Positions 71 to 54,242 of a stretch of 64,000 nt of DNA are shown in pieces (within the stretch, counting starts at the first letter, position 1; every line of letters starts with the position of its first letter). A model generated the notes under the pieces. The model saw only the letters and a list, made by a program, of their open reading frames with translations. It was not told the DNA's origin and did not search any database. The DNA comes from Beroe ovata (taxonomy: Eukaryota > Ctenophora > Nuda > Beroida > Beroidae): contig CAMPET010000080.1 in the NCBI GenBank assembly GCA_946803715.1, positions 160,853 to 224,852 on the forward strand, in the 5' to 3' direction. Both the position numbers and the translations under genes were made by a program.

Positions 71-224
71 CTCGAACTCCCCCAGAAGCAGTACCGTTAC
101 TAAGAGCGTCGCTACACGCGAGTCGCATCCCCTCTTCTGGCACGACGCCAGGATACGGAGCGAACATGGCCGGGAGATTGTACGCGATCTCCAGCGTGTG
201 GATGCCTTGCGAGTAGCAGTAGTC
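71..224 (-). CDS. Innexin alternative loop-1 exon b (DYCYSQGIHTLE type)
   Basis: This 154-nt exon follows a good acceptor (tttgcag) and ends before a gtatgc donor. It encodes 51 residues plus one base. It starts DYCYSQGIHTLEIAYNLP and continues with APYPGVVPEE, which aligns with DYCWTQGLYTVLEGYDQP and IPYPGLLPDE of exon a at 568-691. Both exons are entered in phase 0 and left in phase 1. Exon b is ten residues longer. The extra part contains a cysteine and an N-glycosylation sequon (NGT) in what should be extracellular loop 1. No second TM1 exon lies between the two loop exons, so a separate innexin gene is less likely than mutually exclusive splicing, although a very short separate gene fragment cannot be excluded. 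The donor gtatgc is weaker than that of exon a. Confidence 0.75.
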
Positions 225-3200: not shown

Positions 3201-5591
3201 GGATCAGAGCTATGCAAAATGAGGATTTTTCACGAAGATTTTTGACTGAAAATATGTGACGACAAGTATTAAAATACACTCTCTCCTCCAGGCTTGCTCT
3301 ATCTTTTCATAGTACAGTGTAGAGCTGATATTTGTGTTGGGAAGCCAGTATCAGCTCTGAATACTGACGAAACAGCTATTGTTGGTCAGACAATATGTAC
3401 TGTGCGACACACACACTAGTACGTGGTAGCTGTCTGTGTCACGACCAATCAAATTACAGATCGGTGATCACGTGACGGGTCTAATCCAATTAGAATGGTC
3501 AGGGAAGTGGGATGTGTGAGGTACGCACGTTCTGACATTGTTCCGCTTCTGCCTAAAGGTGACATAATCATCATAGTGACCTTTCATGACTCTCGCAATA
3601 CCTTGACACACATATGGTCTTGTTGAAAGAATTTGTTGTCTAAGTACAGACAGGCGCGATGCACGATCTAGGATACTAGGATAAACGTCACACCCGGCCA
3701 CTCCATGGATGGTGAATAGTTACTCGGTATTCCAAAAATGGGCAACTATCCTACATGATGAGTGCACACTCACAGTTTTACTCTGCCATATTGAAATATG
3801 CATAGGAGATAGGCTGTCTTGAACACGACATTTTGAGCAAAAAAGACAGGATGCAGAATAGAAGACATAAAGTCACCTAAAAGAATCTAAACGCAGCGCG
3901 TCTGTCAAAATTGAACGAAACAAAAATTACAAGTTCAGTAAGAGTGTAGAAAATAAAAGATTTCGGTAAATCTGAAAATATTCCTCCAGTTGTAGTAGTG
4001 ATATAGGTATCAGTGAAACTTGCATTCCCGTGTATCATGTTGAAATCTGTGCTCATGGGTGTATGGGAGCAATTACACGGTGTAATCACTGTAACAACTG
4101 GGAGTAGACCGGAAATCCAATAATTGCGGACTATTCATTAGGAGCACCTCCCCTAATCATGATTTTAGTATATTTTGTGACCAAAGTGCATGGAACTTGT
4201 GACCAAAGTTCTCGGATCTTGTGACCTTATCATATGATCCATGGTCGTAGCTCACTGATCATCCGTTGACTACGGTCGGTAGCATGTAGTCATGGAGACC
4301 TTGAGTCTTGATCTTGTTCCAGGGCACATAACTCGATAGATAGGTAGATCAATAAGTATCCATGATAATTTGAGATACAGTATCGTGATGTTGGAAACTT
4401 TACTACTTTAGTGATATCAAAATGGAGTCGACCCTGAGTCTAGCAATATAATTGTCTCCAAATTTAGTCTCCATTTGTCTCAAATATCTAGCAATCTCCC
4501 TGATACAGCTAGCTCAATTTCTATTACATCAATCTTTCGTCACTCCCAATCATACGTCAACCCTAACCTGCACTAGCTATTGATTCTACATAGAGGATGA
4601 TTTCTACCTGTCGTCACCCTCAAATTACAACTTATAATAATACAGCTGCAAATTAATAATTATTGAGCTAGTCAATGATTCCTTGATTAAGTTTTTTCCA
4701 GCAAAACGTACTTACTTTTCTGAAGAAAGCCATCATCATTCATCCCAAAATCGACCACAACAATAACCTTTAACTCCACTGATCAAACAAACAACCATAA
4801 TATAGAAACTACACCGTGTACAACAGCAAGCATATGAACCATTGCTTATATATTAACAAAAGAAAATGAGAGAGAGAGAGTGTGTGAGCGCGGATCTAAT
4901 CTGATCTAAAATCCAATACCATTTCTTCAAGCACTCTCTTTCTCCTGCGCATGTCTAACCCCACTTATGTATGTTGAACATGGGTCAACATGTATAGTCT
5001 CAGTGGGATAGTGATTGTATTGCTGTCCAAGAATCATGCATCTGGTTCTATACCGACACTACCAACAAATTGCCTAGTCCAATAGCAATTATTTCAGACA
5101 AAGGAATCAGCTATCCCGGATTGTGAGGTAGAAAAAATGAGCCAATTGTTAATTGGGCTCTTTTATGACAGTCATAAAGAACAATCGGATCCAAACACAG
5201 ATTTTTACCTGGATCACAAATCACAATGGATCTTAACCAAACTCAATTCAGAAGTTTATCGAACCCTAATTGGTTAAATGAGTCATGAATTAGCATAAGT
5301 AAAGATTAAATCAGTACTTATTGAAGAACAATAAACGGCATGAAACGTAGACACAGATATCAGGGTCTTTATCTGGGTCACTATTGATCCACACCAAGGC
5401 TTAGATAATTAGTTGATTGGTTAGTTATAATCACACCTTAATTGAGTCATGAGTTGAAGTAATAACTTTAAATGATAATTGGTTTTTGAAATGAAAATCA
5501 TTGAATTTATCAGATTCAACTACTCACTTTGAAGGGAGTAACTCCTTTGAATTTTGAGAGTATGTCTAGCATTACGTAACGTGAACCGCTC
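71..5591 (-). CDS. Innexin gap-junction/hemichannel subunit, N-terminal core exons (3' end off the window)
   Basis: Innexins are four-pass membrane channel subunits. Reading leftwards on the minus strand, the exons are 5591-5528 (N-terminus, MLDILSKFKGVTPFK), 1271-1119 (GITIDDGWDQLNRSF, TM1, RQYTG, ISCDGF) and then one of two loop exons, 691-568 or 224-71. Phases fit throughout: exon 5591 is entered with one base and leaves in phase 0, exon 1271-1119 is 51 whole codons, and both loop exons are phase 0 in and phase 1 out. The two cysteines expected in innexin extracellular loop 1 are present (ISC in the TM1 exon, DYC at the start of the loop exons). TM2, loop 2, TM3, TM4 and the C-tail must lie beyond position 1. 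The MLDIL methionine is the canonical innexin start, but the frame stays open upstream of it into several candidate first exons. The family assignment is very likely; the exact transcript set is inferred. Confidence 0.88.
568..691 (-). CDS. Innexin alternative loop-1 exon a (DYCWTQGLYTVLE type)
   Basis: This 124-nt exon has acceptor cgcccag and donor gtgagt. It encodes 41 residues plus one base, from DYCWTQGLYT through IPYPGLLPDE to PVRLK. The pattern DYCW..GLYT followed by PYPG is what innexins show after TM1, in the first extracellular loop. It continues in phase 0 from the TM1 exon (1271-1119). This is probably the default form because its sequence is closer to the family consensus and its donor is stronger. 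It forms the docking surface of the channel, so replacing it with exon b should change docking or gating. Confidence 0.85.
1119..1271 (-). CDS. Innexin TM1 exon
   Basis: The exon is exactly 51 codons, with acceptor ttctccag and donor gtaagc, phase 0 at both ends. It reads GITIDDGWDQLNRSF, then the hydrophobic TM1 segment (MFVLLVVMGTTVTV), then RQYTGSVISCDGFKKF, the start of extracellular loop 1 with its first cysteine. WDQLN just before TM1 and QY.G just after it are innexin hallmarks. It is the common exon that both N-terminal modules (5591-5528 and 1484-1417) can join in frame. Confidence 0.9.
1417..1484 (-). CDS. Possible alternative innexin N-terminal exon (module B)
   Basis: This is a 68-nt candidate exon with acceptor ccaacag and donor gttagt. 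Entered in phase 1 it is open and leaves in phase 0, so it can replace exon 5591-5528 upstream of the TM1 exon. It encodes LCEMSPKTAFSRYHNELC and ends ASQW. Two start exons with a matching phase-1 donor lie upstream on the same strand: ATG at 2161 (ATG G, gtaagt) and ATG at 4743 (28 coding nt, gtaagt). The peptide is not a recognisable innexin N-terminus and the donor is weak, so this rests on phase agreement only. Confidence 0.35.
1591..1616 (+). repeat. (GA)n microsatellite
   Basis: A GA-rich run lies upstream (minus strand) of the module B exon. On the minus strand it gives a long pyrimidine tract before a ctccag. Confidence 0.85.
2158..2161 (-). CDS. Possible minimal start exon for module B
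   Basis: On the minus strand an ATG plus one G is followed directly by a perfect gtaagt donor, giving a start exon with only four coding bases. About 70 bases upstream is a TATA-like ttataaag on the same strand. The phase-1 exit matches the entry of the exon at 1484. Strong donor and phase are the only evidence. On the other strand an unrelated frame stays open from about 2133 to 2444. Confidence 0.3.
4716..4743 (-). CDS. Possible start exon for module B (MNDDGFLQK)
   Basis: ATG on the minus strand opens nine codons (MNDDGFLQK) plus one base before a gtaagt donor. Its phase-1 exit fits the module B exon at 1484 and does not fit the TM1 exon directly. The frame is also open for eight codons upstream of the ATG, so it could instead be an internal exon. 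Nothing in the peptide is recognisable. Confidence 0.28.
5528..5591 (-). CDS. Innexin N-terminal exon (module A)
   Basis: The exon is 64 nt with acceptor cttttcag and donor gtgagt. With one base donated upstream it reads SGSRYVMLDILSKFKG then VTPFK, and runs in phase 0 into GITIDDGWDQLN of the TM1 exon. MLDIL...K is the usual innexin start, normally lying in the pore funnel. The open frame before this methionine (SGSRYV) has no stop, so first exons ending in phase 2 would add an N-terminal extension rather than only a 5' leader. Confidence 0.85.
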
Positions 5592-7996
5592 CTGAAAAGT
5601 GGAAATCAGTTAGTTACTTAATTACATAATTAGTTAATCGGTCATTAATGATTACATTCAATGATAATTTTACGAGAATTTCTAGAAGTACTAGGAATAA
5701 TTATTCTGTGGTCACGTGATTATTTTGTTGATATCGTCATTTTGATGACATGTGCCTGCTTTGACCAAGTCAACAAGTTATAGTAGGAATCAAAGATTAC
5801 TAATTTTGATGATAGAGTTATGATATGGATTATGGAATTTACATGTACAGATTGCAGAATCCATCCCAAGAATTACTACCTTTGACAGTTAGTGATTGTA
5901 TGATTTCGGAATTACTCCTTCAGCATACAGACAATTAGCAGCTACTTATTAAGCGAGGATCAATACAATGATTAATCCTAGCAAAAATTCAGAGAAAAAT
6001 ACGATCTTGATATATATATTTTAAAGAACATATTATGATCTTGATACAATTGCCACTGCGATAGTTACTGTCTAATTCAGTAGCCTCTCTTCCCACCTCA
6101 CTACAGGGTTAGTTGATTAGGCACCTTGTAACCATATTCTACTCAACCAATTGAAGACAACAGCACAAAATTTGATTCAATATAATTTAGTATGCTTGAG
6201 GTGGGCAGCGAAAAGTGTAAGTGTAACGGGATTTTGTTAATTAATTGAAGTTTATTGAAGTGCAGTTTTCATGACGATATGGGTGGTTTTGTTTCTGTGG
6301 GTGAATGAAATTTTCTCCTCGAGAGAGAAAAATTGCGAAACCCCCAGTTCCTTCCAAAAAAAGCTATTCCCTCAGTGGATTCAGGTGTATACCTGCTCTT
6401 TGGAGACCCTCGAGTCATCGTTCATAGAAACACATTTGCAAAATCTTGACATCAGCTAGTCACATAGAACTATGTACTAGAATTAGAAAGCAATGGGCAG
6501 TGATTTGGTTAAGGTAAAGTATTGGGACCAGTTAGGTATTGAGACAAGTTTTTTGCGGATGTCTAAAAACCCCTGGAGACAGGTTTTACTTTTAGGTCAT
6601 GTGGGTCGGTTCAGCCACAAAAGAATCAGCAGAAACTCTATTCAACCACCCAAAACACTGATGTTTATCAAATATGTTGCACGGGTACTAGCAATAAATC
6701 ATCTCCAATTAACCAATTATCTCCAACTAATCAATTACATTAATCAACACGTCATCGACTCGCCGACAGTCAGTACCACTATGGGCACTTAATAGGGCAA
6801 GACAACTAAACAAATTATCTGCCTGGAAGACGACGACAGGGACCAAACAAACATGTTCACTGACAATCATCGTACACAAACAGTGTAAGATCAACAAAAA
6901 ATATAGAAGAGAGGGTAGATGCGAGCTACCGTACCATCAGGCGTGCAGGTTGTGAGCAGCTAGACCAACGAACTTGAGGTTCTCTCCCTTTATCTATATC
7001 GAGCTGAGCTCTATAATCGATCCCAACTGATTTATATATAGATGATAAGTGTACGCAAAATTTGACGTTTGACCAACGCGCCTGCATCTAATATAAATCA
7101 GAGTGCTTTGAAGATGTGCGGGTATACTATACCCTAGGTTTTCGAATAATAATTTGCATTGTAAACTATTTATAAGATTAAGTTTTGTTCATCCTCCGAT
7201 TATCATTACCTGAGTACATGACTGTTTCAAAGCCCCCTCCCCATACAATACAGCATGAGCTGAGCAGCTGACTGATTGAAAAAAACACACACAAGAGAAA
7301 AACCTGTGATGTGAAAAACATATATCTCCCATCTACTGCAATGCCAGATTTTTATTGGAGTGCGCGGTGCGTGTACAGATGCGTGTGCGTGCGTGTATAA
7401 ATGCGTGTGACGCTAAAATATGAGTCGATGTATTTCTCATGACAAGATTCATGATCATGACTGGTGTATATATAGGTATGAGGATTGAATATTAGAGGGA
7501 GAGAAGGGGAGAGCTGATGACCCAGCTGGAAAATACATGGTTGGAGAGAGAATGAGGATGGAGGTAAATAATATAAAAGTGTCCTCTCTGTACGATTCTA
7601 AACCTTTATTTCTGATCACGTGACAAGACTTGACGTTTCTCAGTGGCAGGCAGACACTTGATGGAGAACAAGATGAATTTAAACGAATATATTTGACCAT
7701 CATGCGAGTTTGACATTCATAAATGATGAACGTGATCGTACAGGCATGAAATGGAATGATTGAGTGATTGCACGGAAGGATGTATAATATGATGCTTGAG
7801 CACAGCTTGTTTTTGATGGAGAATGTTCATTAACTGATCAAAAAGATATTTGTAGTCAGAGCAAAACCGTTCATGATCGCATTGAACTGAACAACTGTCT
7901 TACGGCATGTGAAGGGGAAATACTGAATGGGATACATATCACTTCATTTCACAACCATGAAGTATTGAAGTATCTACTTCACAATTATATACTTAC

Positions 7997-8418
7997 GATT
8001 TGGAAGATTCTCCATGGTGACCGTGGTGACCATGGTGATGCGAATGCTCCCTCTCCTCATGCTCAACTGTGATGTCATGATGCTTCGTGAAGGACGGATC
8101 GTGATCCCCGAACTCATCCAACTCTTCGAACCCCTCATCATGATCCCCGTCATCGCTCATCCGAGATCCCGATCTGCTGGACCGGGAGGATTCCCTGCTC
8201 CGGGACCTACTGGACCGGGACCCACTTCGTGAACTGTTCCGTGAGGAGCTACGGGATCGACTGCCTGATCTGCTCCGGGACCGAGATCGGGACCTGGGAC
8301 TCCAACCCCCTCCTCCTCCTCCTACTCCACCGCCCCCATGCGAAGACATCAGGGACATCCGGCTTCCGGATTCGGAGTCCATGTTGTTTGAGTATTCGGG
8401 ATCGTCGTCATCATACAT
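7997..8418 (-). CDS. Candidate alternative first exon of the innexin gene: RS-rich N-terminal extension
   Basis: ATG at 8418 in a good context (gaaccATGt) opens 140 codons plus two bases before a perfect gtaagt donor at 7996. The peptide has an acidic start (MYDDDDPEYSNN), a glycine run, about 20 RS/SR dipeptides, an acidic stretch (DDGDHDEGFEELDEFGDHD) and a histidine-rich tail (HHHGHHGHHG). The phase-2 exit fits the innexin N-terminal exon at 5591, giving ...SSKS-SGSRYVMLDIL. RS domains are typical of splicing factors, so this could instead start an SR-protein gene, but no RRM or other matching downstream exon is visible. Coding status is convincing from composition and donor; linkage to innexin is inferred from phase and order. 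Confidence 0.6.
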
Positions 8419-8444
8419 GGTTCGCAGTCAGAGTCTCCAGGTAG

Positions 8445-11400
8445 GAGTTAGGGCTTCCAGTGGGATGCCTTTGGAGAGCGGAGACAATGTGTGATACGGG
8501 ATTTCAGCTTTCAAAGGTGTCAAGGTGTCCTTCAGGATCTATAGATTTGGGTTGATCCTTTCATGGATGCAAAAAAGTATAGTATAGAGATTAATTCGCG
8601 AGATTGGAGGATATCAATGACTTGAAATTTTTGAAAAAATAGTATAGAAAGACCGTCAAATTTCTTTCAGATAAAGTTGCTTCTTAAGCCACAAGGAGAT
8701 TGGAAGACACAAATGAAAATGTCCGGAACAATCGGAAGACATTACTCTCAGAGGCACACCATGAAACGCAACGATTATCCACTTAAGTCATTAACAATTA
8801 TGACATCTTTGAAAGACGGGATTGGCAGGGTGTGTTTGACATTAATCGTCGACATCAAAGAAATGGGATAATGGCGTGTATGTGTGTAACGGCTAACGGA
8901 AGGCAAGAGTATTATAGTCAAAAAGTTTTCGACTGATTACACCGGATTCATTTCAGTCAAGTAAATGATCTGGCCAGTTCACTAGGAAAGAGAAACAGCT
9001 AATAACCAAATATTTGCCCTAAATTCCGAGATGCTCTGTTCCACCCAAAACATTTGGTAACACAACGTAAATTGGTTACCATGGAAGCAGCAAAACGTGA
9101 ACTACCAAAGAACTGAAGTGACTCAGAGGCAGACAAGCAAACAAAAGTATGCTGCTGTCTATGCACGGTCTAAAATCAATACAGTCTGCTGTTGTCTGTG
9201 CTTCAACAATCAATACATCTAAATGATATAATAGTAAAACAAGCTTTACTAAATCCCTAGTACGACATCATGGATGGAAGGAATAGCGTTGTGGTAGCTA
9301 GAACAATTGATTTCATCCCCAGGTTCATAAGTCAGATCATTGTGTATAATACAGACGTTGATTTCTATATGATATTGAGTTGAAATGGAAAAGCACAAAT
9401 GAGCTACAAAATATGTCCACTCTATATTTTCAACTCGTTTGTTCCATGGAGGACTTGGGTCACTGTACTAGAGATCAATTATGGAAGTTAATGATCAACC
9501 GAACAAGCGTTCAAAAGCAGGAATACTCATTGAAGTAAGGCTCAAATAAATCCAAAGCCCCGCGAAGCGGACTGTGAAGTATTAATCCTGCACACACAAG
9601 TAGGAATTCATCATCTTATCTGCAGTAAACAAATGATGACTGTGTACACATATATGATGCTTGAGTATGCCTTTGTGGGGAACCTAATGATCATAACAAC
9701 AACAGCACTTAGCCATGATGGTATATACGCTAATGAGGTTCTAACACTCAGAAATCCAATGCTCGGAATTCTAATCCATTGAAGTCACTTCTTGGTTTAA
9801 GGAGGGCTGGGTTGTTCAAATTTCTTATAATTCTAAAGTTCTCTAATCTCTTCAAAGTCACTTCATGTTGTGAATGACCAAAATTAGAGCTCATTCTATG
9901 CTTTGGACTTTGATTTTGTTCTGAAAATTCGTTCACGAACTTCTGATGAATGACTGGAGCTGCAATCTGCATATGAATGGAATAGAACAAGACAACAACA
10001 AAACTTAGTTCTCTAGAAAACTGCAGATGCTGGACGCTCTATTCTCTATCAAAGCTAAATTCTATCGAAGCCAGCAGTTCTTGATAAATACGGGCAGAAT
10101 TGCTCTAGCTTGAAGAGTGAAATTGATATGAACTCGTTACAAAAATCACCAATTTCACAATCATTATGCAGTAAATAAGCGCTTGAGGTCTATTACATTG
10201 AGTCTTGGAAAACAGTAACTGCAATACGAGAGGAGAAGACAAAATTCTACGGTCTAACCAGAGAATACCATCTTTCTAAATCATGAAGCATATTCAACCC
10301 ATGAAATAGATGAATCTAACCAATGTTATGATGCTGGAAAAGCATGGTAGAAGCTTCATGAGCAAAACCAATCGCTTTATATCTAGCAAACCACAATCAT
10401 CACAAATAACCTTCTATAATAGGAGAGAGTTTTTATCCAGTTTCTTTGACAACAATCAGAAAACACACAGTATACGCACATGTATACAACATTATATAAA
10501 GCAGGCATATTTGTTGCTGACAAAAATCGATCGTGGTCAAGTGAAGACATGTGTGTCTGAGGAATAACATAGGAATTTTGAGCTTATCGGCGCATCTGTG
10601 ATGAAGATTCGCAGAAGAAGAAAAACGTGTATTGTAGTTGCACAACACACAGTCCTGCAAGACACATTAACTGGTATAACACATGGAAATAAAACAAATT
10701 CTAGTATATAAATTTGACGGTCCAGATCATTTGAGTATTATGAAGCCAAAGAACTTGCCGTTGAAAATTACAAGGTGTATTCTTCACATTTTGGTATGAT
10801 AATTTCGTACATAGAATGATAATCATGCTTCCAATGCTGCATAAGCAATCTACCAACGAAAAGAAATTGGTGCATTTTACCAGCCCAGATTCCATTCACA
10901 CCGAATTTCAAGTACGCATATTTTGAGAAGTTTCACTGAAGACATTTCTTTTACCATACACAAGCCATTCATCATATCTATTAAGTGGCCATACAGTTAG
11001 CTATTCATATAAGATCGTCATAAGCAGTGGAGACCAATAAAAGTCTGGCCCTGGCTTCAAACAAATGAATGACAAGAGATCTTGTTGATCTTGAGAGGTA
11101 TTAGAGTATAAAAGAATCACTTAGGTACCTATATGACCTCGGTAGGAGACCAGCCAATTTACATAAAAACACCCGAACTAGCCTGACAGAAGGATCATTT
11201 GTCTTTAAAACACTCGTATAATGTACTGTTGTATGATCATATACTGTTGATGGTAAATAAGTGGTCATGCTCAATATACTAGGGTCGCTAAAGCAATTAC
11301 ATAGATCAGTTCTTGTTATTAGACTCTGCCCATGTTATAACCAGCTAAGATCATCCAGGAATCAAGACTAAAGATGTTATTCTCAAGCAACAGAGGGAGG

Positions 11401-14400
11401 TAGGCACACCCTGTATGTGATCGATAAAATCATTGAGAAGTTTGGTGGTCCTTCAAAGATAATTGCTCAATATTGGTCACGTTTGATGATCAACTTATTC
11501 ATGCAGAAAAAGCCATTGTTCATTGAGCACACAATTTACCTCAAAGCACACAATGATACCTCAAAATGATGGTTGAAGATATAGGAGATCGGGACAATTT
11601 TATGGCTATCAAGACAAAAATTTCGGTATTAACCAGGTATTTGAGCAGCCGAAAAGCAAAACGGGAGTACACAATTATGCGATGTGGAAAAAACATCCCT
11701 GGATGGGAGCTCTTTTACAGCCAGAGACTCCATCCGTATGGAAACTGTATTACTCCTAATCACCACTCAAGTATAAGGTACAGGGTGGGAGAAGGACTGT
11801 TCATAATACCGACGAAGAAGATACATGGGAGATATAATATGCGAGCCTCTTGTGCCAAGATCGAATATGATTGACAAATTAAAAAGTTATTTTCAGCACT
11901 GCTCTCTTCAATTTTACCCCGTCTTTCTAATTAACAAACTCGTGGCTTATAGTAGGCAATGTATTTGGGAGGAGTATTATAGGAATGTCATCTAACTTCT
12001 ATTTCAGTTAATCATGATTATTAAGCTTATAAATTTGAATAGTAATTTGGCCTCTTAACTGTAACCTTTGAGGGTAGGCAAATTTTTACCGTTCTCCATT
12101 AGAGATTAAGCAAGACCCATTTATTAGAGGACAAGTATTATTGATAGAGATGATGAAAAGAATTAGAATAATCAATTTTTAGATTAGCGGAAATATCTAT
12201 ACAGCCCATCTGGATTTGGCATATCCTGAAATTTGTGTTCTTGGTCATTAATTCGGACACACCCACACCATGTATAATTAAAGTGACTATATATAACCCC
12301 AAGAACCTTCATCACATCTTCGAAACAGAGTATCAAGATCGTGATTCCAATAAATTCCTGATTATTTTACCAAATGATACAATCAACAGGAATTAGAGCC
12401 GATAAGGTTATTGCAGATGTATCACCAAAGCCATCTGTCTTCCTAACAATAATAACTCCACCCGTTTAGAAGAAGGAGCATCAGTTGAAATTCCAGTTGA
12501 AGTATTAGCTTGATTGTGTGTCTAGACTCTAACAGCAAAGTTATAGTTGGTTCGACTTTGTGCCTATATGTACCGGCAATCAGTATATAGGTTACTCGCA
12601 CGTCTATAAGTCACCAAGTGATGAAAAGTGAGTCACTGAATTCAGAAATTTCATCATATTATAAACCTCACCCATCTTGCAATCCATATAGTGATGGACA
12701 AGAATAGCTTGAAAGCATATTTACCTCTGTATCGAACTCCGCCCTCAATCTGTCATCGATCGGGCGATGATGGAAGCATTCAAAAAGAAAAATCTCAAAA
12801 AAAGTGTGTTTTTGTGTGATGGTACTCAGCAGCAACATGGGTATACGTGATTCGAAAATAGATTGAGCTGATGAATGTGTGTTTGAAATTTGCCGCCGAG
12901 AGATTGAATTAGTTATCAATGATTACATGATTAATCACTCAATTAGTAGCGAGCAGCAGCTGCAGTATATAATAACTCTTGTGAATGATTATTTGGGAAG
13001 TGCATCGGAAGTCAAAGAATCTAATTTCAAGTAAAATTTACTGATGGAGTTGATTTTGATCCATAATTTGACTGCTATGTCCAACTGAACCTTATATGAT
13101 CTGAGTTGATGAAATGAAGTGTCAATCCCAAAGCATAGAGAGTAATTTTTTGGGGGGATTCTAAAGTTTTTGCCATTGATATCCTCCACTCGTCAGACAA
13201 CTTGACGACATATTTGTTCATTTCCATGACAACAGGTCTCTGACGATGATGCAACCTTCCCAACTCTTTGCCTCGCATAACGATGACAACTACGAATCAG
13301 CTTGACTGATGTCATCAGCAAGACGTATATCAGACAAAGCTGATGACCACGATGACTGATGACCGCGATGACTGATGACTCTCAATTGATGATCAAACCA
13401 AGCAACAGACCTCTGACCAATTACACAAAGCTTGAACTGACACAGCCATGCAGCTAGTGGCCGGTCAGTGTCAGCTCAGATCCCCATGTGGATATCGAGA
13501 AATATATATCATGGATAAACGACATAAGGCGACGTGCCTGTGACGATACTGCACTTCCTGTTCAGTATAATAACGGGAGGAAACCAGCGCTGGTCCCGAC
13601 GCAATCTCCAGTTCATCACGTGATATAACATGTATCATCATGGTTTTTTTGGGTATAAAGTGATCACTGATCATATATATATATTGAGAATGACGTTGGA
13701 TGAAAATTACAAAATTGCTTCGGAGGTTTTTCCGGTTATATATCGCTATATATACGTACCGCCTAGAAGCTGGCATGTTGTAACATTTAGGTAAGCTGCG
13801 GAGAAAGCAAAAAACTTTACGGTTCCGAAAAAAAAGATGAATAGCGCAATAAAAACGGTTACAGTATCCAAAACGACGTTTAAGGTTGTGAGTTCATATA
13901 AAGAGCACTAGGCAGCAGCTGAAAAGATAATATCGCATCTGATTTTTGTTAAGGTGGTTCATTACAAGCCTTATGTTATAATTAGGTAGTTAGGCGGTGG
14001 AAAGGATTCCCGGAAACTTGGTCAATTGCTGTTCAAACATTTAATACAGACTATATCATGGTTAGACTCAGCCATGAGATTTTACGGATCTTCATTTGGA
14101 CTTAATTAATTTTACAACACGGTTATTATGGAGATATAAATCCAATATGTGACGTATAAGTTAAACTCGGTTCCCCACAATATTGGTCCAAATGATCAAT
14201 ACGATGGTTGTGTGTATTTTCGAATAATGACCATGCAGCGCTTATTCCGGTTGTTCTATATAGAACAGTGAAGAGAGATAGAGCAATCAATATAGAGCAA
14301 TGACATGTGGAATACGCGATGCTTTACTCAAGATCTAACTGAAGCAAAGCAAAGGACAAGACTGGTTCACATTCCAATCTTGCGATGTACTAAGTATCTA

Positions 14401-17250: not shown

Positions 17251-17258
17251 TTACTTAC

Positions 17259-17527
17259 AAGTCCCATGGACTAGACGAAGAAGACTTGGCACCCTTGCTC
17301 TCCGATTTCCGGCAACTTCTCCTGGATGCCCCCGCGTCAGAACTCTCAGTTGAAAGGGTCACACTCTGAAGCAACTGGACACCAGCACCGCCAAGAACAG
17401 GACTCTTGCTGTTGGGGGCAGGGTCAGGACGTTCAAAGTACGTGGTTTCTATAATCGGTTCGGGCAGATACGACGTCTTGTGCTGGTAGTAGTCGGTGTA
17501 AACTTTCCTCACGTTGAGCTGCTTCAT
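17259..17527 (-). CDS. Candidate alternative first exon of the innexin gene (MKQLNVRKVY)
   Basis: ATG at 17527 opens 89 codons plus two bases, ending at a gtaagt donor. The peptide is not low complexity at first (MKQLNVRKVYTDYYQHKTSY, then a tyrosine- and proline-rich part), then becomes serine/basic (SRRSCRKSESKG, SSSSSPWD). No signal peptide or membrane segment is present, as expected for a cytosolic extension. The phase-2 exit is the same as in the 8.4, 22.7 and 30.9 kb exons and fits the exon at 5591. The intron to 5591 would be about 11.7 kb. I do not recognise the peptide. It might begin an unrelated gene whose later exons I missed. Confidence 0.55.
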
Positions 17528-20500: not shown

Positions 20501-22662
20501 ATTATAGTGGCTGACAGGACAGAGTACACAACCAATCTTTCATCTGTCGCTTGCCCGATGGAAAGTTAACCAAGAGTTAGCAAAGCTAAAGAAGATGGGA
20601 AATCAATACTAAGAAAGCGGAGTATAAAGCAAAAGGGAGTAGTAGAAAGAGTAAAATATCAAAAATACGATTGGTACTTATAATTGTACACACGGTTTTC
20701 CTTTATGTATGCCATAGGATTTTTCAATATATATATTTTGGTGAACGATTCCATCACATCTTATTATACCTCTGCATGTATTTCCATCGGATGATGATGA
20801 ATTTGTGATCAGAAAATAGCTATAATACCGTTATTATGCCAAGACGAAAATGTACATCATGGAACATTTTCCGATTGGAAACTAGCAATATTGGTGAGCT
20901 CTTTGCTGGCAAATGAAATTGAGTAGCGCTAGGCAGATATAATTGCAGCTTCCGTGGGCTAATCAATTCACAGTATACTTGTTGCGTAGGGGAAGCATAG
21001 AGACAGTTGAAATGATACTATGATATAGTCTGCTGAGAAGCCAGTGGGAATTGATCCACCATTTAGAATATAACAAACAAATTTGTTGAAATTGAGATTG
21101 AAATTTTTCAGTTCCTTCTATCACACAATTCCCACATACCATATGTAGAGCAGGCCCATGAAGAAGACTAGAATGAGAAGATCCAGTGTTGAATCGAGGA
21201 AGAAATCAGAACGGTGCAGGCAAAGGGGAATGAAACTTCCGATCAAAATTTTGCACTCGAAATGGACGAAATTGACGAAATTGTTGACTCACAAATTGAC
21301 AACTCATTCGTTACTCACTTGCTGATTAATTAGAGAACAATTATAGTTACAAAAGAGTATTTACACCTTCCCAAAGTTGCTTTGTTTGAACTCACGCCTC
21401 AATAATAAGGAAATGGTCGACAGTAAATATTGTCGTCCGTCAATAATATATTGTCGGTGATATACAGCTTGAGTTTGGCCTTATGATTTAGATGGACACT
21501 TTGATGGTCCTGTTGGTTTGTTTGCGACATCTTCATTGCTACAGTGTATTCCTATAAATCATACAAACTGGTTAAGATAAGCATCCAAAAGCAATTTTTC
21601 TAGGCCCTATAGTCAAGAAAAATATAATCGAAAAATTTGAACACCCTCAAAATCGGAATCAATATGAACCTGGCGAAGTCGGTTTTCATGGAGTGATCTC
21701 TCACCTGAAGCCCTGATGAATGATACAGGTGTTGGGCTGCGCAGTTACCATATCACCTCTTCATCGATATAATGTGAAGTTGGGAGAAAACAGCTCTGGT
21801 ACAGGATTATTATCAACCCACCTCAAACATAGGGCAGAATACTGCAGGCAAGATTAGTGCTCAACTTATTGGGGAATTTTCACCAAAATTTAGGAATTGG
21901 GTACTATAAACGATGACTATGATAGTGCAGGCAAGATTAATATTATCACACACCGTATTATGGGAATGAAGTGAAGGAGAGGAAACACTGCTAAAATCAC
22001 ACTACAGAGTGTGGGGGTGGTCAACAACAATAATGGTGATCCTGGTTATCACGTGACAGTGTCACCAAGCATCTTGTTGTCATGGGAACACGTCACACCG
22101 GCATGTCACGTGACTTTGATTGCAATTGATTGGTTATCAAGATCATTTGTCAGTATGACTGCCTCGTGACACACATAAATACAACTACCGATACTATTGT
22201 GGATTGGGGTTGGTGTGTAATAGATTTATTAGATAAATTGGCACTCTTAGTTGAGAACATCAGACCGTACACATCTTGATTATGATGACAACAATCATAA
22301 ATTAGAGACTATATAAATGCACATGCCAATTATATGTAAAGTTCCAATTTGCCCGTGCTATTAGGGCGCAGCCATTGTACACGGGGAACCTATGTATAAG
22401 CTGTAATGTATTGTCAGGTTGTACCTCGATCACCCATGCAGAAAATTTGCATGATTTTAATCACCTGATTCGTGATCAATACATGGACTTTGATATGTTT
22501 GTTACGCTCATGACAATTCATGAACTGTGACTATGAAGTTTCGCCATACAATAATTTCATGGGTCATCTCAAGATAGACGAACCCCTAAATAAAAGGTGT
22601 CTTTAATACCCTGCAAACTAGGATTACCACCTACCTACTGCATTACTGAAGCGATAACTCAC

Positions 22663-23207
22663 CGCATCACTTTCAGAGCAAATTCAACTTCTTCTTTCCT
22701 CTTTCTCCCCCTGTCCCAATCAATCTCCTCATCATTGTCGATTGAATGCTCCACACCAGGAGTCACGCCCCAATCACCCGCCCTGTAACTGCCTGCCAGT
22801 TCCCCTGCTAGCTCACTAATTGCCAGTAGTCTCTTACTATGAACTCCCAGTCTGAACCTCCGGCCCTCCTCGGCCACCATGAAACACGAGTTTATCATCT
22901 GAGCTCGACGCTGGAAGGACCAATAGGAATGTCCATCCTCGTTACTCGTGCCGGTGCCCTTCTGATCGTATCTCCGATAAAAACTCGACATTATCATGAA
23001 ATTCTCCTTCTTATTCGATGTGCAGTACGTGGTGCTGAGTGCTAGTCTCCGGACAGTCGCACTTGCGCTCATGTTCTGAACCCGTGCGCGTCTTTGGATT
23101 CGGTTACCATGGCGATGTTGCCGCACGTGGAGTTTGTTTCCACGGTGGAGTTCAGCGCGGCGTGTTCCGTGCCGCGCAGCACGATATCGACGAGAAATCC
23201 GTGGCAT
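22663..23207 (-). CDS. Candidate alternative first exon of the innexin gene (longest N-terminal extension)
   Basis: The frame is open from an ATG at 23207 to a gtgagt donor at 22662: 181 codons plus two bases. A second ATG at 23072 (MSASATVRRLALSTTYC) is an equally good start and gives 136 codons. The first 45 residues are arginine/histidine rich. The later part (EEGRRFRLGVHSKRLLAISE, DNDEEIDWDRGRKRKEEVEF) looks like ordinary soluble, charged protein. The 5' part lies in a locally GC- and CpG-richer patch, suggestive of a promoter-proximal exon. Phase 2 fits the exon at 5591. The peptide is unrecognised; coding status is likely, linkage inferred. Confidence 0.5.
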
Positions 23208-26200
23208 TTTGCAGAGAGGGAGATCAGAGTTGGCAACAGTTCGATACCACGATTCGTAAGAGATAAGTGAAAGAGGAGAGAAAGAGGCTATAAAATTCTC
23301 TTGGTGTTATTCCTGCATAATTACTTGTTCATGTTAGACGATTAATTGCCGGCTAATTAAATTGCTTGATCAGTTAATCAATCGTCAACAAACAATATGT
23401 CGATGTATCGAGATATAATGATCATTGCATTAGTATTGGAGTCTAGACGGATCACATGATTTGAGAATTCTCATCTTATCCTTCGTGATGAGAGATATCT
23501 ATGATATTCATGATGAAAATTACTCTTTTTGGAGATCATAAGGAACATGAATATTCAGACTTCATTCATCTGGTGATCATTTGGCAGTTACTTGGCCATC
23601 TATGATCCGCTTCTGAGTATAAGAATCTAACCTTTATTTTACTCGAGTCCAATTCCAGTGAGCTATGATTTCAGCCATCATCAAACCAATTGAAGAGAAG
23701 ATTCTCGAGAAACAGAAGTAATTAATTCTATTATTGGAATTCCACAGAACACTCTTGAATCACGCCCATTATCTGGAAGTCAGGCTAAAGGATCCTTCTA
23801 ATGATGTATTGTAACGTATCTATATAATGATCTAGATCACATGACAATATTATCACATGATCCATTGTACTACTCCACTCATGATGATACTGGATAAGAG
23901 TGCTGACTAAATATATAAATTTCACCATGTCATAGTCTGTATAAATCAAACAATCCCTGAAGTCGATAGATTCACAAGGGATGGATACATGGTCGATGAT
24001 CTCATCATTTCCAAGGAATTATAATATGTCCTTATCCAGCAAGAGCCTCGCCCGAAGTTCTGAATCAGAGTTCCAGAATGGTTAAATTTGCAAGGAAATA
24101 GAGAAACTTGGAACGGATTTTGCACGTATATTGCTACTATACAACATGCAGAATGTAAATCTCATACCACTAGAGTGCAAGTTGTGCAATAATTCTGCAA
24201 AAATTGTCTTTTCTCTGCTATATCACAGGGCGCTACTAAATATTTCCTTGTGGCTGATATGATATGACCACATGTGAGATACACCTCTCCTACCCTTATG
24301 TCATGAGTCATCATAATGAGCCTGATTAACTGTTTTTCGATTAATCCATACTTAGAAAAAGTCGGGAGAAAAATGATGTAACGTTTATGACGTGCTATGA
24401 CGCTTCTAGAGGAAATCCTTGGGATGGTTTTTCCCGCCCAGTTTCACGAAAATTCCTCGCATTTTCGGCAAAATAATACGTCCACTGAAGACATGAGCAT
24501 GTTAGGTCGACATGGTCATATCTCGAAAGATGTCATATTTTATGAAGGAGACTTTCTCGTTTACAATGTCTAGAATATCCACTCAGTCGTTCTGAAATGA
24601 TTGGTGGTCCAGCGATTTAGTGTGGATCATAAGAAACTTTTACTTTATTTCAAAGTCCGCTGAAGTCTGGGTGACGTATGCATAAAAATATATATTGGCG
24701 AAAAAAATATTTCGCGAAAAAATGATGATATGATGAGGAGTTAGGAATCGATAACCAGCTCGTAATATTCAACATTGTACGACAATCAAAGTTTGGAGTT
24801 CTGATCACAAATCTTTGCTGCCGATTTGGGGATGACATTTCTCCATTATGACAACCAGCTAATTCGATGAAAGTGCCACCTTTTCCAATATGATGACCGA
24901 TGCTCTGAACATTTTGTCCCGTATTCTAGAGTGAGAGATAGAGCTTCAAGTTGCAACCATCTTCTGTTATGGGCGATCCACCAATGCAAATGAAACATTG
25001 AAACCCTTCCCAAATTGAAGCATATCTATATCCTTAGGTTCATTCCGTATACATGTTCATTACCCTTTCTAAGATACAGACAGCCAATATGATACAGACA
25101 GCCAATATGTAGAGGATCCGAGACCTGGATCAAACATAGAATTACCTCCGCAGCAGTTCGACTCGGATATATACTGCTGGCTGTTCTCGCGATTCGTCCT
25201 CCAACAATAGCTGGTACTCAGCTGCCGCAACTATTTGCTGTGTGCATCATAGTTAGTCAGAGTTGCTACGACCATGCACATATGCATAATATATTGCAAG
25301 AAGGAACAAATTTTGGAAGAGCCAACTGAAGCATGGGAATAGTCGCCATATATTGTAATGATTTTATGACAGTCGTGACTGTCTTATGGCAGTGTTAACA
25401 TCTGTGTTGACGTCTACACGAGAATCTATAACATGATCATACTAGCAGGTATATTACTGGTATCAGGTTGGTGTGATGGAATTAATCTCATCAGAATTCT
25501 AGATAGTATAATATTGAGAGATGTCACCTCTCGTAATCATGATTTTACTGATTGGGGATCGATGAAGAGTTGTACATACCTACATGAAGTGTGGATGATG
25601 GAAAGATGGAGAGGAAGACAGAAAGTGACCTGAGATCTTGTTTTCCTTACACTTTTTGATCATACTTAGTCAAATGGGTTAGCTCACATTCAGATGAGAA
25701 ATTCATCAAAGTTTTCGTTTAGTGGTCACTCATATCTCCTAATTAACTGTTAACTCTACTTACTAGTTCATACATCATACCGTTACACCTATATATATGT
25801 CATTAAGCTAATCACATATGTCATTGAAAATGACAGGACAAATGGAAGAATGTGGATCCTCAATTCACATCAGATATACTCACCCTCAAAAATTCGAGAT
25901 AAGGTCCTCCCTCTCTTCGCTCCGGCTATAGGCCACTGACCACAGGAAAAACCAGCAAGTTATAACAGCATCGTACGCGGGAACCCGAAAGCTCGTATGT
26001 ATAAATAAATTTTAATAAAATGATCCAGGGCAGTGGGGCACCGATGCTCCGACTGATTTGACCATATAAGCGTGGAGCACAGTGGAGTCTTATATATTCC
26101 GATATCGGAGCATGGTCCTGATTGGCAGGTGCATTCAGACCTCGTGATCTGATTGGATGGTGACGTGCTTCTCTTCGGCTTGTGATTGGTCAGTGTTTGC

Positions 26201-28705
26201 GTCACGTGATATGTGTGCGACATCACGGTAGAAGCAAACACAGATTCCATTTGTGTGATCTTAAGGAGTGTCTCTGGATAATAAAAAGTTCCATAACTTT
26301 ACATTAAGTAACAAAAGATAGATTTTATCGGTGGATTTATTGAACAAAGGAGGAATTCGGCGTGATATCATGATGGCACATCACTTCATCATGAGCTTTG
26401 TTCAGTCATGCATAAGTTTTAATAAAAGTAAAAGTTTGCGATTGTCAATAAATTCAATAAAACATGAGACACATGCGATCCATTATGTTCACTCAATACT
26501 TTTATGCGATGGATTTTATGCGATGGATATTGGAACTTATTACTATAACTAGCATGGTTTCGTCATTGCAGGATAGGGGTATTTGTGGATTAAAGAGAAA
26601 TTTCTACTTATTCAGATTCCTCGAATCAAGTTTAGAGTTTAATAAATCAGCAGATTTTTCAGCACTTCTTTGGCAATTGTCCAATTCCATCATCTCAATA
26701 TCGACAGCAAACATTGACATCCCCTTTTAAGTCCGAGAAATGGATATGTTTAGCCACAAAAAGAAGCAGCACTACGAATAGCAGGACGAAGAAAACACGT
26801 AGCCTTGCAGATTCCAGGAAAACTCACGCTCTTATCGGCTGTTATGTAAATTGAGATACGAGATACAATATATGTCTGAGAGTTGGTTACCGCCGCGCGT
26901 CACATTATCATAGATACATGGCAACTGCACTGGGAATTATGGTGAAAATCAAAGATATGAATCGATAACGAAGTTATTTTGCGGTGATAATTGTTATAGG
27001 CAGGAAATTATTGGTGGAGAAGTAGATACACTTTAGTACCGAGAACGTAATGAGAGGATATAGCATCAGAACGTATATAAGGTCGCATGCGAATGATGAC
27101 TTAAACCCTCTGGTTTATGACCTCCTTTATAATATAGATTGATGATGTCCATTAGAGAATATAAGGTCAGTACATCAAACAGACGTCGGCAAACTGTTTG
27201 ACTGGAGGCATGGGATCACGAAAGTCTGCATGCAGGATGTCACAAAAAAGTGAGTATGTATGACAAGAGATATGGCCGCGCGGGCGTACTCAACGTATAT
27301 ATTTCACATCGTCATAAATCATATCGAGTTAATTAATAAGGGATATAACAATGGTGGGAGGGATTAAAATTATATAATCAACATTGAGATATGAGAAGAT
27401 ATTATGTGATTCTTATTGTCATAATACTACACGTGGTCGAGATGTAAAATATACATGAACGGGATGCTTCTTTTGAAGAGGAAGAGGTCATATAAATGTG
27501 GCGGTTTATAGTCAATCCGCCATCGCTCGCAAACCCCTCGTTTCGATATTTGGGAGCTTTCGTGGTTTCAAGAAGAAGATATACACATAAATGACGAGTC
27601 TGACCTAGAGCAAGAAAACCATTTCAAAACCGATGAAATGCCAGATATGTCGAAAACAGAGCTGGGATAGAGCTACTAGATGCCATGTGATCGGTGACGT
27701 ACCAGCTAGACTGCATACATATATAGCTACTTCATTTAGTCAACTCATACTTCCATTAAATGGAATTGTGGCTGTATCAGGATACGCGGTTAACAAGGTT
27801 AACTAACGAACTTGATATCTATCTACAGGATAGATAATATCTAGATATATGATCATGCAGCGACTCAAGAGAGATGTGATTCAAAATGAATTTGGGAGAT
27901 CAAATATATTATCTCCTGTCATTGATTTAAATAAGTTGTAAAATCTAGTTAAAATAGACTAAGTAATGACTACACATATCCGGCTGCTAAAACATATATA
28001 GTCGACTCACAACCAGCTGTCGGTATAGAGCTGAAAAGACATAAAACGTGATTACCAAACAACAAACATTTAAATATATTTAATAGCACATAAAATATAA
28101 TAATTAACCTTCTCCTATATATATAACGAGATGATCGGTCTCTCCAAACAAAATCACGTGTCTTGGCACGTGTTTACGTCATCGAGGCACGTGATACACG
28201 GTTACTAGGACACGAAAAACTGTGATTATATCGAGCTACACGTATGTATCTATATCGGCTACAATGTCGCGTCTGTATATCCCGTAATCCGAGCACGTCT
28301 TTAGTACGGACTAGCTTTAATTGCTCCATCAGTAGATATAATCGGTTTAGTTTTTCTCGTGAGGTGAGTTTTTAGGGAGGAAGAGGTCTTTTTCAAAGCT
28401 CGAAAAATGGCCGGAATGCTCAGTTTTATGAGGTTTTTGTACGAGAATTCAGCATTTATAATCCGAGAATGAAGAACGTGATTACGCATTTAATAGGCCT
28501 GGTTAATCAACGTTTTTTCATGGATGAAGCAAATATTCAACTCATGACTAAAATAAAACTTGATTTAAATTTTCAGTCCTGCACTCGGTCTTCATATCTA
28601 GAGCAAACACGCACATCCAGAGTCAAGCTTAGACCAGATGTGTGTGCTCGACAGAATCCTCAATCTCAGATTGTTATAACAGACGCGAAACTCAGCGAAA
28701 TATAT

Positions 28706-28764
28706 CAAAATTAAGTGAATCAAATTAAGTGAATCAAAATTAAGTGAATCAAAATTAAGTGAAT
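28706..28764 (+). repeat. 15-16-bp tandem repeat
   Basis: Four units of aaattaagtgaatca lie in otherwise unique sequence. Confidence 0.9.
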
Positions 28765-29195
28765 CCTCAGTGGGTTACCTATATATTACAAGAGACAGTT
28801 ACATATGACGAGACTGATTCAAATGGAGATGGAGGGGGTGAGTTATACTACTCAAGAAGGTCGGGTTTGAGACAGTAGTCTCACTAGCCGAACTCAGATG
28901 AAAACAGTGGTTTGAGAATGAGTGATGAATGATTCTCAATGATATTCTCTCATTGAGAGGGTATGGATTTTTGAGAATCACATATTGTTATCTCTTGTAG
29001 TTGAAGAAATTTTGCTAAAAGTTTCGAAGCTGGAATTAAAATGAGCTGAGCATCCAGCACTTCGGCATTCAAACAAACTGAAGAGCAAAGTCCTAAAGTG
29101 GTCGCGGCGTCTGTTGACTATAGTTATAGTTTGGTAAAAACCACGGTCTTATGCGGTGCCGGCAGCTCATACAGTATTGGGATAACCCTTCATTG

Positions 29196-29230
29196 CACAC
29201 ACACACACANCACACACACACACACACACA
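29196..29230 (+). repeat. (CA)n microsatellite with an ambiguous base
   Basis: A CA run is interrupted by an n at 29210. Here the n probably reflects an unresolved repeat rather than a contig join, because no flanking duplication is visible. Confidence 0.9.
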
Positions 29231-29833
29231 TCGACTGCCATTGACCAAACGTTAGTGCAATATATGTAATGAATTAGTTTGATTAGCAGCCCTGTAAACC
29301 ATGGTTATCATAAAATGCAAATATATCCGACTCGGTCATCGTACAAACAAACATATAAAATAGTGCTGACCATGACACAAAAGGTTTTAGGTATATATAT
29401 GGTGCATGAAAATAAGGATGGGTATAAAAGGAGGATTGAACGTCGTGTGTATTGACCATGCTGTACACAAGCCAAGTACACATACGGCTATTCAATTATA
29501 CTGATGGATCATCATCGAGTATATAATAAGATATATTAAATCCTGGGATTAAATGGTGGAATAATGGGAGCTGAATTTAATAATGAAGTTCACTACCAGT
29601 ATCATCAGCATCAGCAGCTGCAGGGATAGATGATGGTTGAGGTGGGTGTGATGGAATGCAATCTATGGAAAAGTAAGCAATTGTTGTCGCAAATGTTGAG
29701 AGCGCTCTTCAAAAGCTCATCGGATAACAGTAATAACTGGAATTGTAAAAAATTCTCACGACCATAAATCGTCCTTAGGAAGCCCTGAACACCTGTAGAA
29801 TCAGTTTGCTCTTGAAAACGAGAAAGTGCTTAC

Positions 29834-30081
29834 TCTGACACTGACCATGACATAATATGAACCGTGAATATGACGAAGAACAAAGCTTCCTTCAGATGAA
29901 AGATGGAGAAATTCGCTGTGCGGTCCGCAAGCACAATCTCTACTTTAATCGGACATGAAAATGGCAGTCTAATCCCGAGCGGAACAATAGAATGTGGAGC
30001 CAGCTGGAGCATATTCCAGGTCGAGCTCGGAGAATTAATCCGAGATTCAAAATTACAGTGCTTGTCTGACGTGTGTACCAT
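29834..30081 (-). CDS. Weak candidate first exon (MVHTSDKHCN)
   Basis: From ATG at 30081 the minus frame is open for 82 codons plus two bases to a gtaagc donor. This is again phase 2, so it could join the innexin exon at 5591. The peptide has a hydrophobic end (EALFFVIFTVHIMSW), unlike the other candidates. All three minus frames and one plus frame are largely open here, so the open frame is weak evidence. Confidence 0.2.
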
Positions 30082-30886
30082 CTCTTCAAACACAAGGAAA
30101 TATCTTCAAACAAACCGAGGTTAATATCAAAATTCGCGTAACAAACGCGCGAGGATAAGCAAATATATATCATTCACCAATCGATAAGAGTAACCAAAGA
30201 TAGCCCAAAATTATCATTATAAATTGTTAACATATATATATACCTGAAGTAACCTTCTGACAGCAAAATGAGTTATTAAGTGCTTTAAGGAATTACTAAC
30301 TTCCTTGATGATAGACCAGATACTATATATTTATACGAGAGGAATCATCATTATACAACTCCAACCATCCCATGTAATACACACAGGATTCCTTTATTTT
30401 CCATTATCATAGAGCAACGTGAAGACAGATTGTACCTAGACAACTGTCTGTACTACATCCAGGATCATACATGTAGATCATGTAATCCATTAGGGAGAAC
30501 CGTTTAGGAATCGATTCAGCATCCAAAAATACATGGAGGAATCAACATGGTCTTTTGTACAAAATCGGACAGAAAATTTTCCTTCGTCGTTTTCTCAGCA
30601 TACACCTAGAGTCGAGTGATGGTGTAGTGAGTGAAGTACCACACTTCACTGCCTCGATTCACGGGTCATGGAGACTATAGAAGTATAGAGCCTAGACGTT
30701 TATTGTGGAGACTATAGGAATGACCATTGAGGATGACTATATTAGAGGATGACATCGAGGATGGTACTATTGAGGATGCAAATTTACTTCTTTCCAACTC
30801 TCATACTATCAAAAACTAATCGGTCTACGATCATCACCTCGAGTACATACTACAATTGATAATTTCTAGCTAACTAATCGACTTAC

Positions 30887-30951
30887 TCATCGTTCAGATC
30901 GTCTATGAACTGCTCCAGCATGTTGAGCTGGAACTGTTGTCCACCGGGCAT
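30887..30951 (-). CDS. Candidate distal first exon of the innexin gene (MPGGQQFQLN)
   Basis: ATG at 30951 opens 21 codons plus two bases (MPGGQQFQLNMLEQFIDDLN, then D) before a perfect gtaagt donor. Without splicing the frame ends at once (GAG TAA). With splicing it leaves in phase 2 and joins the exon at 5591 as ...NDE-SGSRYVMLDIL. A possible acceptor (ttccctag) just upstream of the ATG means it could also be an internal exon entered with one base. The intron to 5591 would be 25 kb and would pass over three other candidate first exons. Confidence 0.42.
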
Positions 30952-40693: not shown

Positions 40694-40694
40694 N

Positions 40695-41110
40695 TGCCGC
40701 AGGATGGAGACTTTTTTCAAGTAATTTTGTCCGAAATTTACAGAAAATTTGGAATTAAAAGTTAGATTAGTGAGCACTCGAACTTTCGCATTTAAAACAA
40801 AAGTTGAATTTTCCATTCAGGACATGATGAATGTGCTACATAAGTCATTCCGTGGATCAAAAGACAAGAAGCCAGGATCAATCTCATCCAAATCAGACAC
40901 TGAACTTCAACCAAAACCAGAGTTGATGGGGATTGGAATGGCGAATGTGATCGGTAATTGTTGTCGTGTGACTCATAATATACACCAAGCAAACAAGATT
41001 TGCATAATTTCTTGTTCAAAATAAAATTGCTGACCATTATATTATGCGTCATTCCAGGTTCTGACGAGGACAAGTCATTCGATTTCGACCCTCCTTCAGC
41101 AGACTACTGC
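40695..41110. repeat. 416-bp segment between two n characters, copy of 39493-39908
   Basis: The stretch between the n at 40694 and the n at 41111 looks identical to the end of GPCR exon 39179-39518, exon 39619-39751 and part of the next exon. It is out of order in the gene and ends in mid-exon, so it is best read as a redundant contig inserted during scaffolding. Confidence 0.9.
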
Positions 41111-47100: not shown

Positions 47101-47367
47101 ACCACGGAAACATCCATCCCTCCGTCGCCTCCCATTCCAAACCTGACATCAACACCGAGACAGCCGTCTTCTGCCCCGATACATCCATCAACACCCCCTG
47201 CCCTCCCTACAAGACCTCCTCCTCCAGCCACGCCTCCCACCGGGAGAGCACACCCTGCCCCACCTCCGCTGTCCACTTTGGCTTCACTCCAGCGAAAGCA
47301 CACCTCAGAGGGGTACCCAACCACACTTCTTCTCCTCTTCTACACTGGTGGTTTCCTCCTACTCCAA
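41112..47367. repeat. 6.6-kb duplication, right copy
   Basis: This copy begins directly after the n at 41111, at the same sequence as 34503. It matches the left copy through the eighth GPCR exon and then continues into unique sequence with the TM7 exon. The abrupt start at a gap character suggests that two haplotype or overlapping contigs were placed in series. Confidence 0.9.
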
Positions 47368-54167: not shown

Positions 54168-54242
54168 TGCGCATCTTAGACGGTCAATATCTATTTTGCT
54201 ATCATAAAACTCAATAGTGGAACTCTATGCATCTCAGGTAAA

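Follow-up and report, generated by a model that had tools for sequence, protein, structure and literature searches.

A stretch of 64,000 nucleotides (nt) from the ctenophore Beroe ovata (assembly GCA_946803715.1, contig CAMPET010000080.1, positions 160,853 to 224,852 of the forward strand, hereafter the window, in whose numbering positions are given) carries a minus-strand innexin gene at its left end. Upstream of this gene, spread over 23 kb, lie four ATG-initiated open reading frames (ORFs), named here A, B, C and D, which have the appearance of start exons and can all be joined, in one and the same frame, to the acceptor of the innexin N-terminal exon. The best single reading of this arrangement, and a plausible one, is that A-D are spliced to the innexin and would place alternative extensions before the canonical N-terminus of the channel. 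The four start exons had been noticed in an earlier sequence-only reading, and this observation is largely right and better than chance, most strongly so for B.

Four Candidate Start Exons

Inspection of the ORFs and donors confirmed four ATG exons, each ending at a GT donor in phase 2 (Table 1). In A, B, C and D alike, the stop of the minus-strand ORF sits within the phase-2 GTRAGT donor, and all four can join the acceptor at 5591 in frame with no stop before MLDIL. The innexin exon itself is entered, as had been claimed, with one base at 5591, followed by AGC GGT TCA CGT TAC GTA and the ATG at 5572, and is free of stops. Its acceptor, in phase 2 and 19 nt before the ATG, scores 9.8 bits and is equalled or exceeded by only three of the 1300 upstream AG dinucleotides of the region, while its donor scores 8.5 bits, the splice-site matrices being approximate and their scores usable as ranks.

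Table 1. Candidate start exons and innexin exons in the window
Feature	Position	Strand	Content	Splice sites and phase
Start exon A	30887..30951	-	MPGGQQFQLNMLEQFIDDLND + 2 nt	Donor GA/GTAAGT; phase 2
Start exon B	22663..23207	-	181 codons + 2 nt	Donor CG/GTGAGT; phase 2
Start exon C	17259..17527	-	89 codons + 2 nt	Donor TT/GTAAGT; phase 2
Start exon D	7997..8418	-	140 codons + 2 nt; Ser/Arg-, Asp- and His-rich	Donor TC/GTAAGT; phase 2
Innexin N-terminal exon	5528..5591	-	G + SGSRYV + MLDILSKFKGVTPFK	Acceptor at 5591; donor GTGAGT
Innexin exon 2	1119..1271	-	GITIDDGW...FAE, first transmembrane segment (TM1) and start of extracellular loop 1; 153 nt	Phase 0 to 0
Innexin exon 3	568..691	-	124 nt; without N-glycosylation motif	Phase 0 to 1; acceptor 9.1, donor 10.6 bits
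Innexin exon 3b	71..224	-	154 nt; NGT motif	Phase 0 to 1; acceptor 8.2, donor 7.8 bits

A GTRAG donor in phase 2 always gives an in-frame stop, and scans for ORFs are drawn to such sites; the 13 ATG-open frames of at least 60 nt that end at a GTRAG in the region include eight in phase 2, four in phase 1 and one in phase 0. The caution about detection bias voiced in the sequence-only reading was thus right in kind. For this reason a codon-usage scan that ignores donors and phase was run on both strands, and A-D are still picked out by it. The training set of 2509 codons came from the same genome and comprised two innexin and three kinase frames, all of them long, open and checked by motif. In the main scan, all 15 frames of at least 9 bits in the region from 5592 to 31400 fall at the loci of A, B, C and D, as the exon or as a shadow frame, and no coding island beyond these was found on either strand from 5.6 to 31.4 kb. 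An in-frame GTRAGT stop ends four of these 15 coding-like frames, against nine of the 548 ATG ORFs of at least 22 codons in the whole window and 17 of the 1463 stops in the region, a background of 1.2-1.6%; the binomial chance of four or more in 15 is 9e-5, a rough value, the frames not being independent. Among the weaker sites of the same phase that had also been put forward, those at 30081-29834 and 12838-12672 have negative coding scores and do not hold up, and the one at 20442-20435, with a donor of 10.8 bits, is too short for judgement.

The noise of the scan was gauged on the reversed window, which holds no real genes. Segments of at least 9 bits number 42 there and 71 in the real window; the corresponding counts are 23 and 45 from 11 bits upwards, 10 and 27 at 15 bits, and 4 and 18 from 20 bits upwards. 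The coding islands of B (31.7 bits) and D (25.4 bits) are well above this noise, that of C (19.2 bits) moderately and that of A weakly. With 23 segments of at least 11 bits in the reversed window against 45 real ones, A is weak evidence when taken alone; per codon it has the highest score of the set (0.43 bits in frame), and for both A and C no rival frame scores better. B, C and D score 0.13, 0.19 and 0.14 bits per codon, close to the 99th percentile (0.17) of random stretches of 420 nt taken from the region with these exons included, and in the range of three held-out window frames (0.16, 0.11 and 0.05).

From the point of view of homology, the best documented of the four is B, which matches P0001, a protein of 164 residues from a relative, with 49% identity over 88% of the query and with the start Met aligned; no second copy was found in the B. 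ovata genome at E <= 10. For C the sole other match in the same genome has an E value of 2.4, and for D neither a second copy there (E <= 1) nor a homologue in a protein database (E <= 0.001 among 7988 candidates scored) was found. A Pfam search with A-D returned a single sub-threshold match, and one with P0001 and nine other ORFs of the window nothing above the cut-off. AlphaFold2 run on B with two sequences gave an uninformative model (mean predicted local distance difference test score, pLDDT, of 39.4). A second minus-strand open frame, 23248-23078, overlaps the first part of B and has coding-like codon use (16.3 bits).

The Innexin Gene and Its Canonical Start

The minus-strand gene is identified by the Pfam family Innexin (PF00876), which the joined exons 1-3 match with an E value of 5.3e-11 and a score of 42.7 bits against a cut-off of 25. 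TM1, and after it the loop-1 cysteines of the type SC...DYC, are encoded by exon 2 and by exon 3 or 3b, and 11 other loci of the genome match. The gene extends leftwards out of the window into sequence given as N, and nothing encoding an innexin C-terminus was detected on the contig. Altogether, innexin-like matches are present on 11 contigs of the 77.8-Mb genome, one of which has three groups of matches. Two of the loci, C164:152154-152312 and C473:11768-11926, have near-equal scores over the same aligned range, possibly as two haplotypes of one gene.

Homologous N-termini are present in the paralogues and in P0002, a protein from another source. Of the ten paralogous loci with an N-terminal exon that was read, nine have an in-frame Met a short distance upstream of the DD motif that comes after the N-terminus; the tenth, L024, has no Met in this exon and probably uses another exon for its start. 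P0002 reads MVLDILSGFKGITPFKGITLDDGW and starts at the Met of MVLDIL. Because most paralogues carry a Met within the N-terminal exon and P0002 starts at the MVLDIL Met, MLDILSKFKGVTPFK at 5572 is likely to be the canonical start.

A Spliced Leader in the Genome

In ctenophores, trans-splicing of a spliced leader is known (Derelle, 2010, as cited in PMC8527503), and in H. californensis the leader is carried by 56% of Iso-Seq reads, the lower bound given by the authors, who also describe nested genes as common, with 2357 of them (PMC8527503). In the genome of B. ovata, a 22-base form of the leader, with up to three mismatches, gives 72 + 71 leader-like copies, against 1 + 3 for the reversed pattern; the longer leader ACTACTTTATACAATCAAATTTGAG with GT behind it gives 59 + 50 matches at up to two mismatches, against none in the control. 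Among the matches listed, at least 19 are exact copies of ACTACTTTATACAATCAAATTTGAG with GT, and others are without GT. Five copies on one contig form a tandem array with a spacing of about 0.9-1.1 kb, and in one leader gene that was read the leader is followed by a GTAAG donor. Like the H. californensis leader, to whose printed form it is close (PMC8527503), the leader here ends in ACTACTTTATACAATCAAATTTGAG with a donor after it in the gene read. Unlike in known trans-spliced ctenophore genes, it is known here as genomic copies, and its presence on the innexin mRNA is a prediction. The family has more than 100 copies, for instance at C127:168108-172035, and further copies lack the donor, some of them arranged as close inverted pairs. 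Behind the copies without GT the sequence varies and in one case reads CCATG, a pattern to be expected of retrocopies of trans-spliced mRNAs, which these copies may be. Within the window no leader copy was found.

An acceptor 19 nt before the ATG is just what a trans-spliced gene would need. In the paralogues, the best acceptor-like site within 60 nt of the ATG exceeds the 75th percentile (4.9 bits) in five of nine and the 90th (6.7 bits) in three of nine, with 2741 random ATGs as reference. As leader genes are present and acceptor 5591 lies close before the ATG, a short form of the innexin probably exists whatever A-D do. Neither this leader route to 5591 nor the alternative loop-1 exons described below had figured in the sequence-only reading.

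Do the Candidate Exons Join the Innexin?

In the proposed arrangement, a single minus-strand innexin transcription unit would have as many as four coding exons as alternatives at its 5' end (A, B, C and perhaps D), each of which would be joined to acceptor 5591 in phase 2. With the junction codon and SGSRYV included, the residues added ahead of MLDIL would be 28 for A, 188 for B, 96 for C and 147 for D. The short canonical protein would be translated from an mRNA that begins with a non-coding leader exon or with a spliced leader added in trans at 5591. The extensions would be cytosolic and stand before the pore-lining N-terminus, and they would most likely alter trafficking or hinder gap-junction function, hemichannels being allowed, as has been proposed for the C. 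elegans innexin form UNC-7L. All the junctions, promoters and channel effects in this scheme are predicted.

Other internal exons entered in phase 2 (acceptor of at least 8 and donor of at least 7 bits) amount to only two candidates (36 and 94 nt). Farther left, outside the window, 7.6 kb are readable, and there protein-like coding islands lie on the plus strand, one of them with a P-loop-like GLPGAGKTT recognised by eye; each minus-strand island overlaps a plus-strand one, which has the higher score except at 150149-150307 (10.8 against 9.8 bits). Since other internal exons are few and no clear minus-strand gene is seen leftwards, an in-frame join to the innexin would be the simplest home for A-D. 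A host gene running past the innexin was considered and rejected, all minus-strand islands of the readable left flank being overlapped by plus-strand ones that mostly score higher. A single gene running A-B-C-D with B, C and D as internal exons was likewise rejected, as inspection by hand found no phase-2 acceptor before the ATG of B and D and an implausible one before that of C.

Several observations weigh against the joining of A-D to the innexin. In the region, 17 of the 1300 AG dinucleotides reach 8 bits and any of them could open a terminal exon, the search having covered internal exons. Acceptor 5591 needs no coding partner, leaders being available; P0002 and most paralogues have their start Met inside the N-terminal exon, and the open frame ahead of MLDIL, of six codons, is of a length that carries no meaning. 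The donors had been described as strong, which fits B, whose 10.3 bits place it among the five of 1484 GT in the region that reach 10, and not A, C and D, which are moderate (5.1, 6.7 and 5.9 bits, in a region where 86 of the 1484 GT reach 5) and without a G before the GT. Training on innexins only gave 25 frames, of which four end in GTRAGT (binomial chance 7e-4) and seven lie elsewhere in the region, and training on kinases only gave 11 frames, three of them ending in GTRAGT (likewise 7e-4), with A lost. The coding island of A, of just 11.5 bits, is in addition near the noise of the reversed window, and the coding strand of D is ambiguous, with an opposite-strand frame at 33.3 against 25.4 bits. 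Finally, P0001 has its own start and its own stop and fits a separate gene as well as a first exon; it comes from a contig of 218,724 bases and the innexin match P0003 from one of 1,435,830 bases and, if both belong to one assembly, the B and innexin homologues are not neighbours there. The alternative-first-exon reading is partly supported, in that the exons look real and their phase fits 5591.

There is a considerable chance that A-D belong instead to another small minus-strand gene, or to several, as 5' exons or as the larger part of the coding sequence, and that the innexin mRNA starts at 5591 by trans-splicing, in which case the remaining exons of those genes would be short, AT-rich or within the unreadable stretch left of the window. 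The abundance of leader-like copies in the genome speaks for it, as do the leader frequency and nested genes of H. californensis (PMC8527503), the acceptor-like sites above the 75th and 90th percentiles near the ATGs of paralogues, and the resemblance of P0001 to a complete small protein. Such genes would leave the common innexin phase of all four exons unexplained, however, and neither partner exons of A-D, in a search of internal exons, nor a clear minus-strand gene in the readable left flank were seen. That B, C and D are intronless stand-alone genes with chance GTRAGT stops, and A a chance open frame, is unlikely: four coincident GTRAGT stops stand against the background rate given above, and the donor of B is of a rank that few GT in the region attain, even if long uninterrupted coding frames are common in this genome (many kinase domains lie whole in one frame), the B homologue P0001 has its own stop and A is near the noise of the scan.

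Very improbable is a further arrangement, resembling that of the fly gene shakB, in which the true first exons would be short phase-0 ORFs within intron 1 that replace MLDILSKFKGVTPFK, for instance MMAFFRK ending at 4716. The donor after MMAFFRK reaches 8.4 bits and phase 0 fits exon 2, but an ATG-open phase-0 frame precedes 4 of the 13 intron-1 donors of at least 6 bits, which is the 29% baseline of 146 donors, and the scores of such short frames are inseparable from noise. MMAFFRK and two other candidates of this kind were set aside as unsupported, their frequency being that of the baseline. The splicing of A-D to the innexin thus remains the reading preferred here, at the tentative strength given at the outset.

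Candidate Alternative Exons for Extracellular Loop 1

Exons 3 and 3b are tandem homologues with 47% identity over 32 amino acids, and a mutual in-frame join between them is impossible; they appear to encode alternative halves of extracellular loop 1 and are candidates for mutually exclusive exons. Exon 3 is near-identical in P0003 and in P0005, the latter a protein from another source in which both loop-1 exons lie in one open frame, 14 codons apart. The second exon of P0005 aligns with 3b without gaps over 51 residues, with NGT on NSS in the same column, and no N-glycosylation motif is found in exon 3 here, in P0003 or in P0005.

In pannexins, N-glycosylation of the extracellular loops blocks docking, and 67% of ctenophore innexins carry N-glycosylation motifs (PMC8769644). 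By analogy, the choice of an exon with or without the motif could switch the channel between junction and hemichannel. Against such a switch, innexins with motifs of this kind that do form gap junctions have been described (PMC8769644), and the rest of the innexin protein, which is unread, could hold other motifs. A literature search on mutually exclusive exons in innexins brought up no report in the 12 of 234 and 15 of 44 results listed, which does not prove their absence from print. A combinatorial set of channels, with up to five N-termini (the canonical one and A-D) and two loop-1 exons, is a bolder idea and rather doubtful. If it were true, the exon 3 form would be able to dock, the 3b form would be a glycosylated, pannexin-like hemichannel, and the N-terminal extension would independently set trafficking or gating.

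Other Features of the Window and Genome

Rfam and tRNA scans of the window found nothing. Near-identical ORFs recur on both strands at 39072-41103 and 45648-47430, in copies about 6.6 kb apart, and also 1.2 kb apart within the first block, which suggests a recent segmental duplication. On the plus strand, 54180-57566 holds long ORFs of 402 and 704 amino acids with a possible signal peptide, recognised by eye, and no Pfam family over the cut-off for the protein. In the genome at large, many protein kinases have their complete domain within a single frame that nothing interrupts.

Comparison with Known Innexins and Significance

The general statement that innexin N-termini are short, on which the sequence-only reading had drawn, has a published exception in UNC-7L. 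The unc-7 gene of C. elegans gives isoforms of differing N-terminal length (PMC2694797; PMC7010410), among which the long form is reported to act in touch sensing independently of gap junctions and the short forms in gap junctions (PMC7010410). A touch response described as independent of gap junctions was rescued by UNC-7L and not by UNC-7SR (PMC7010410). After removal of its internal start, UNC-7L produced no oocyte currents, yet the same mutated form restored forward locomotion under the Punc-7S promoter (PMC2694797); the evidence on UNC-7L is thus mixed and speaks against a simple division of roles. The candidate arrangement in B. ovata is like unc-7, with UNC-7L, UNC-7S and UNC-7SR, in that one innexin gene would have N-termini of differing length; for unc-7 the transcripts and two protein forms have been demonstrated, whereas the extensions proposed here, unrelated to one another, up to four in number and 28-188 residues long, are predicted from DNA alone. 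By analogy, the A-D extensions would most plausibly act as in UNC-7L. In Drosophila shakB, transcript variants of the one locus (ShakBL, ShakBN and ShakBN16) have different N-termini and rectification is affected (PMC5412853); between ShakBL and ShakBN16 the difference lies in the first third of the protein, whereas here the canonical N-terminus would be kept and extended.

In ctenophores, the innexin families INXA-INXR have been distinguished, and M. leidyi and B. ovata were each found to have 12 innexins (PMC9949713); the gene described here is of the same family by sequence type, in a genome with a similar number of loci. In the main text of that work the words exon, intron, splic and N-termin do not occur and gene structure is not treated (PMC9949713). 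Innexin isoforms with different N-termini are already familiar from worms and flies, and a ctenophore gene that combines as many as four extensions with a choice of loop-1 exons would be a new variation on them.

Ctenophores are among the candidates for the sister group of the remaining animals, and the way in which their cells are coupled is an open question. If the reading proposed here is true, one innexin gene with N-terminal extensions and a loop-1 splice switch would show how few genes can give many channel types, and the idea derived from UNC-7L, that an N-terminal extension turns a gap junction into a hemichannel, would become testable far from nematodes.

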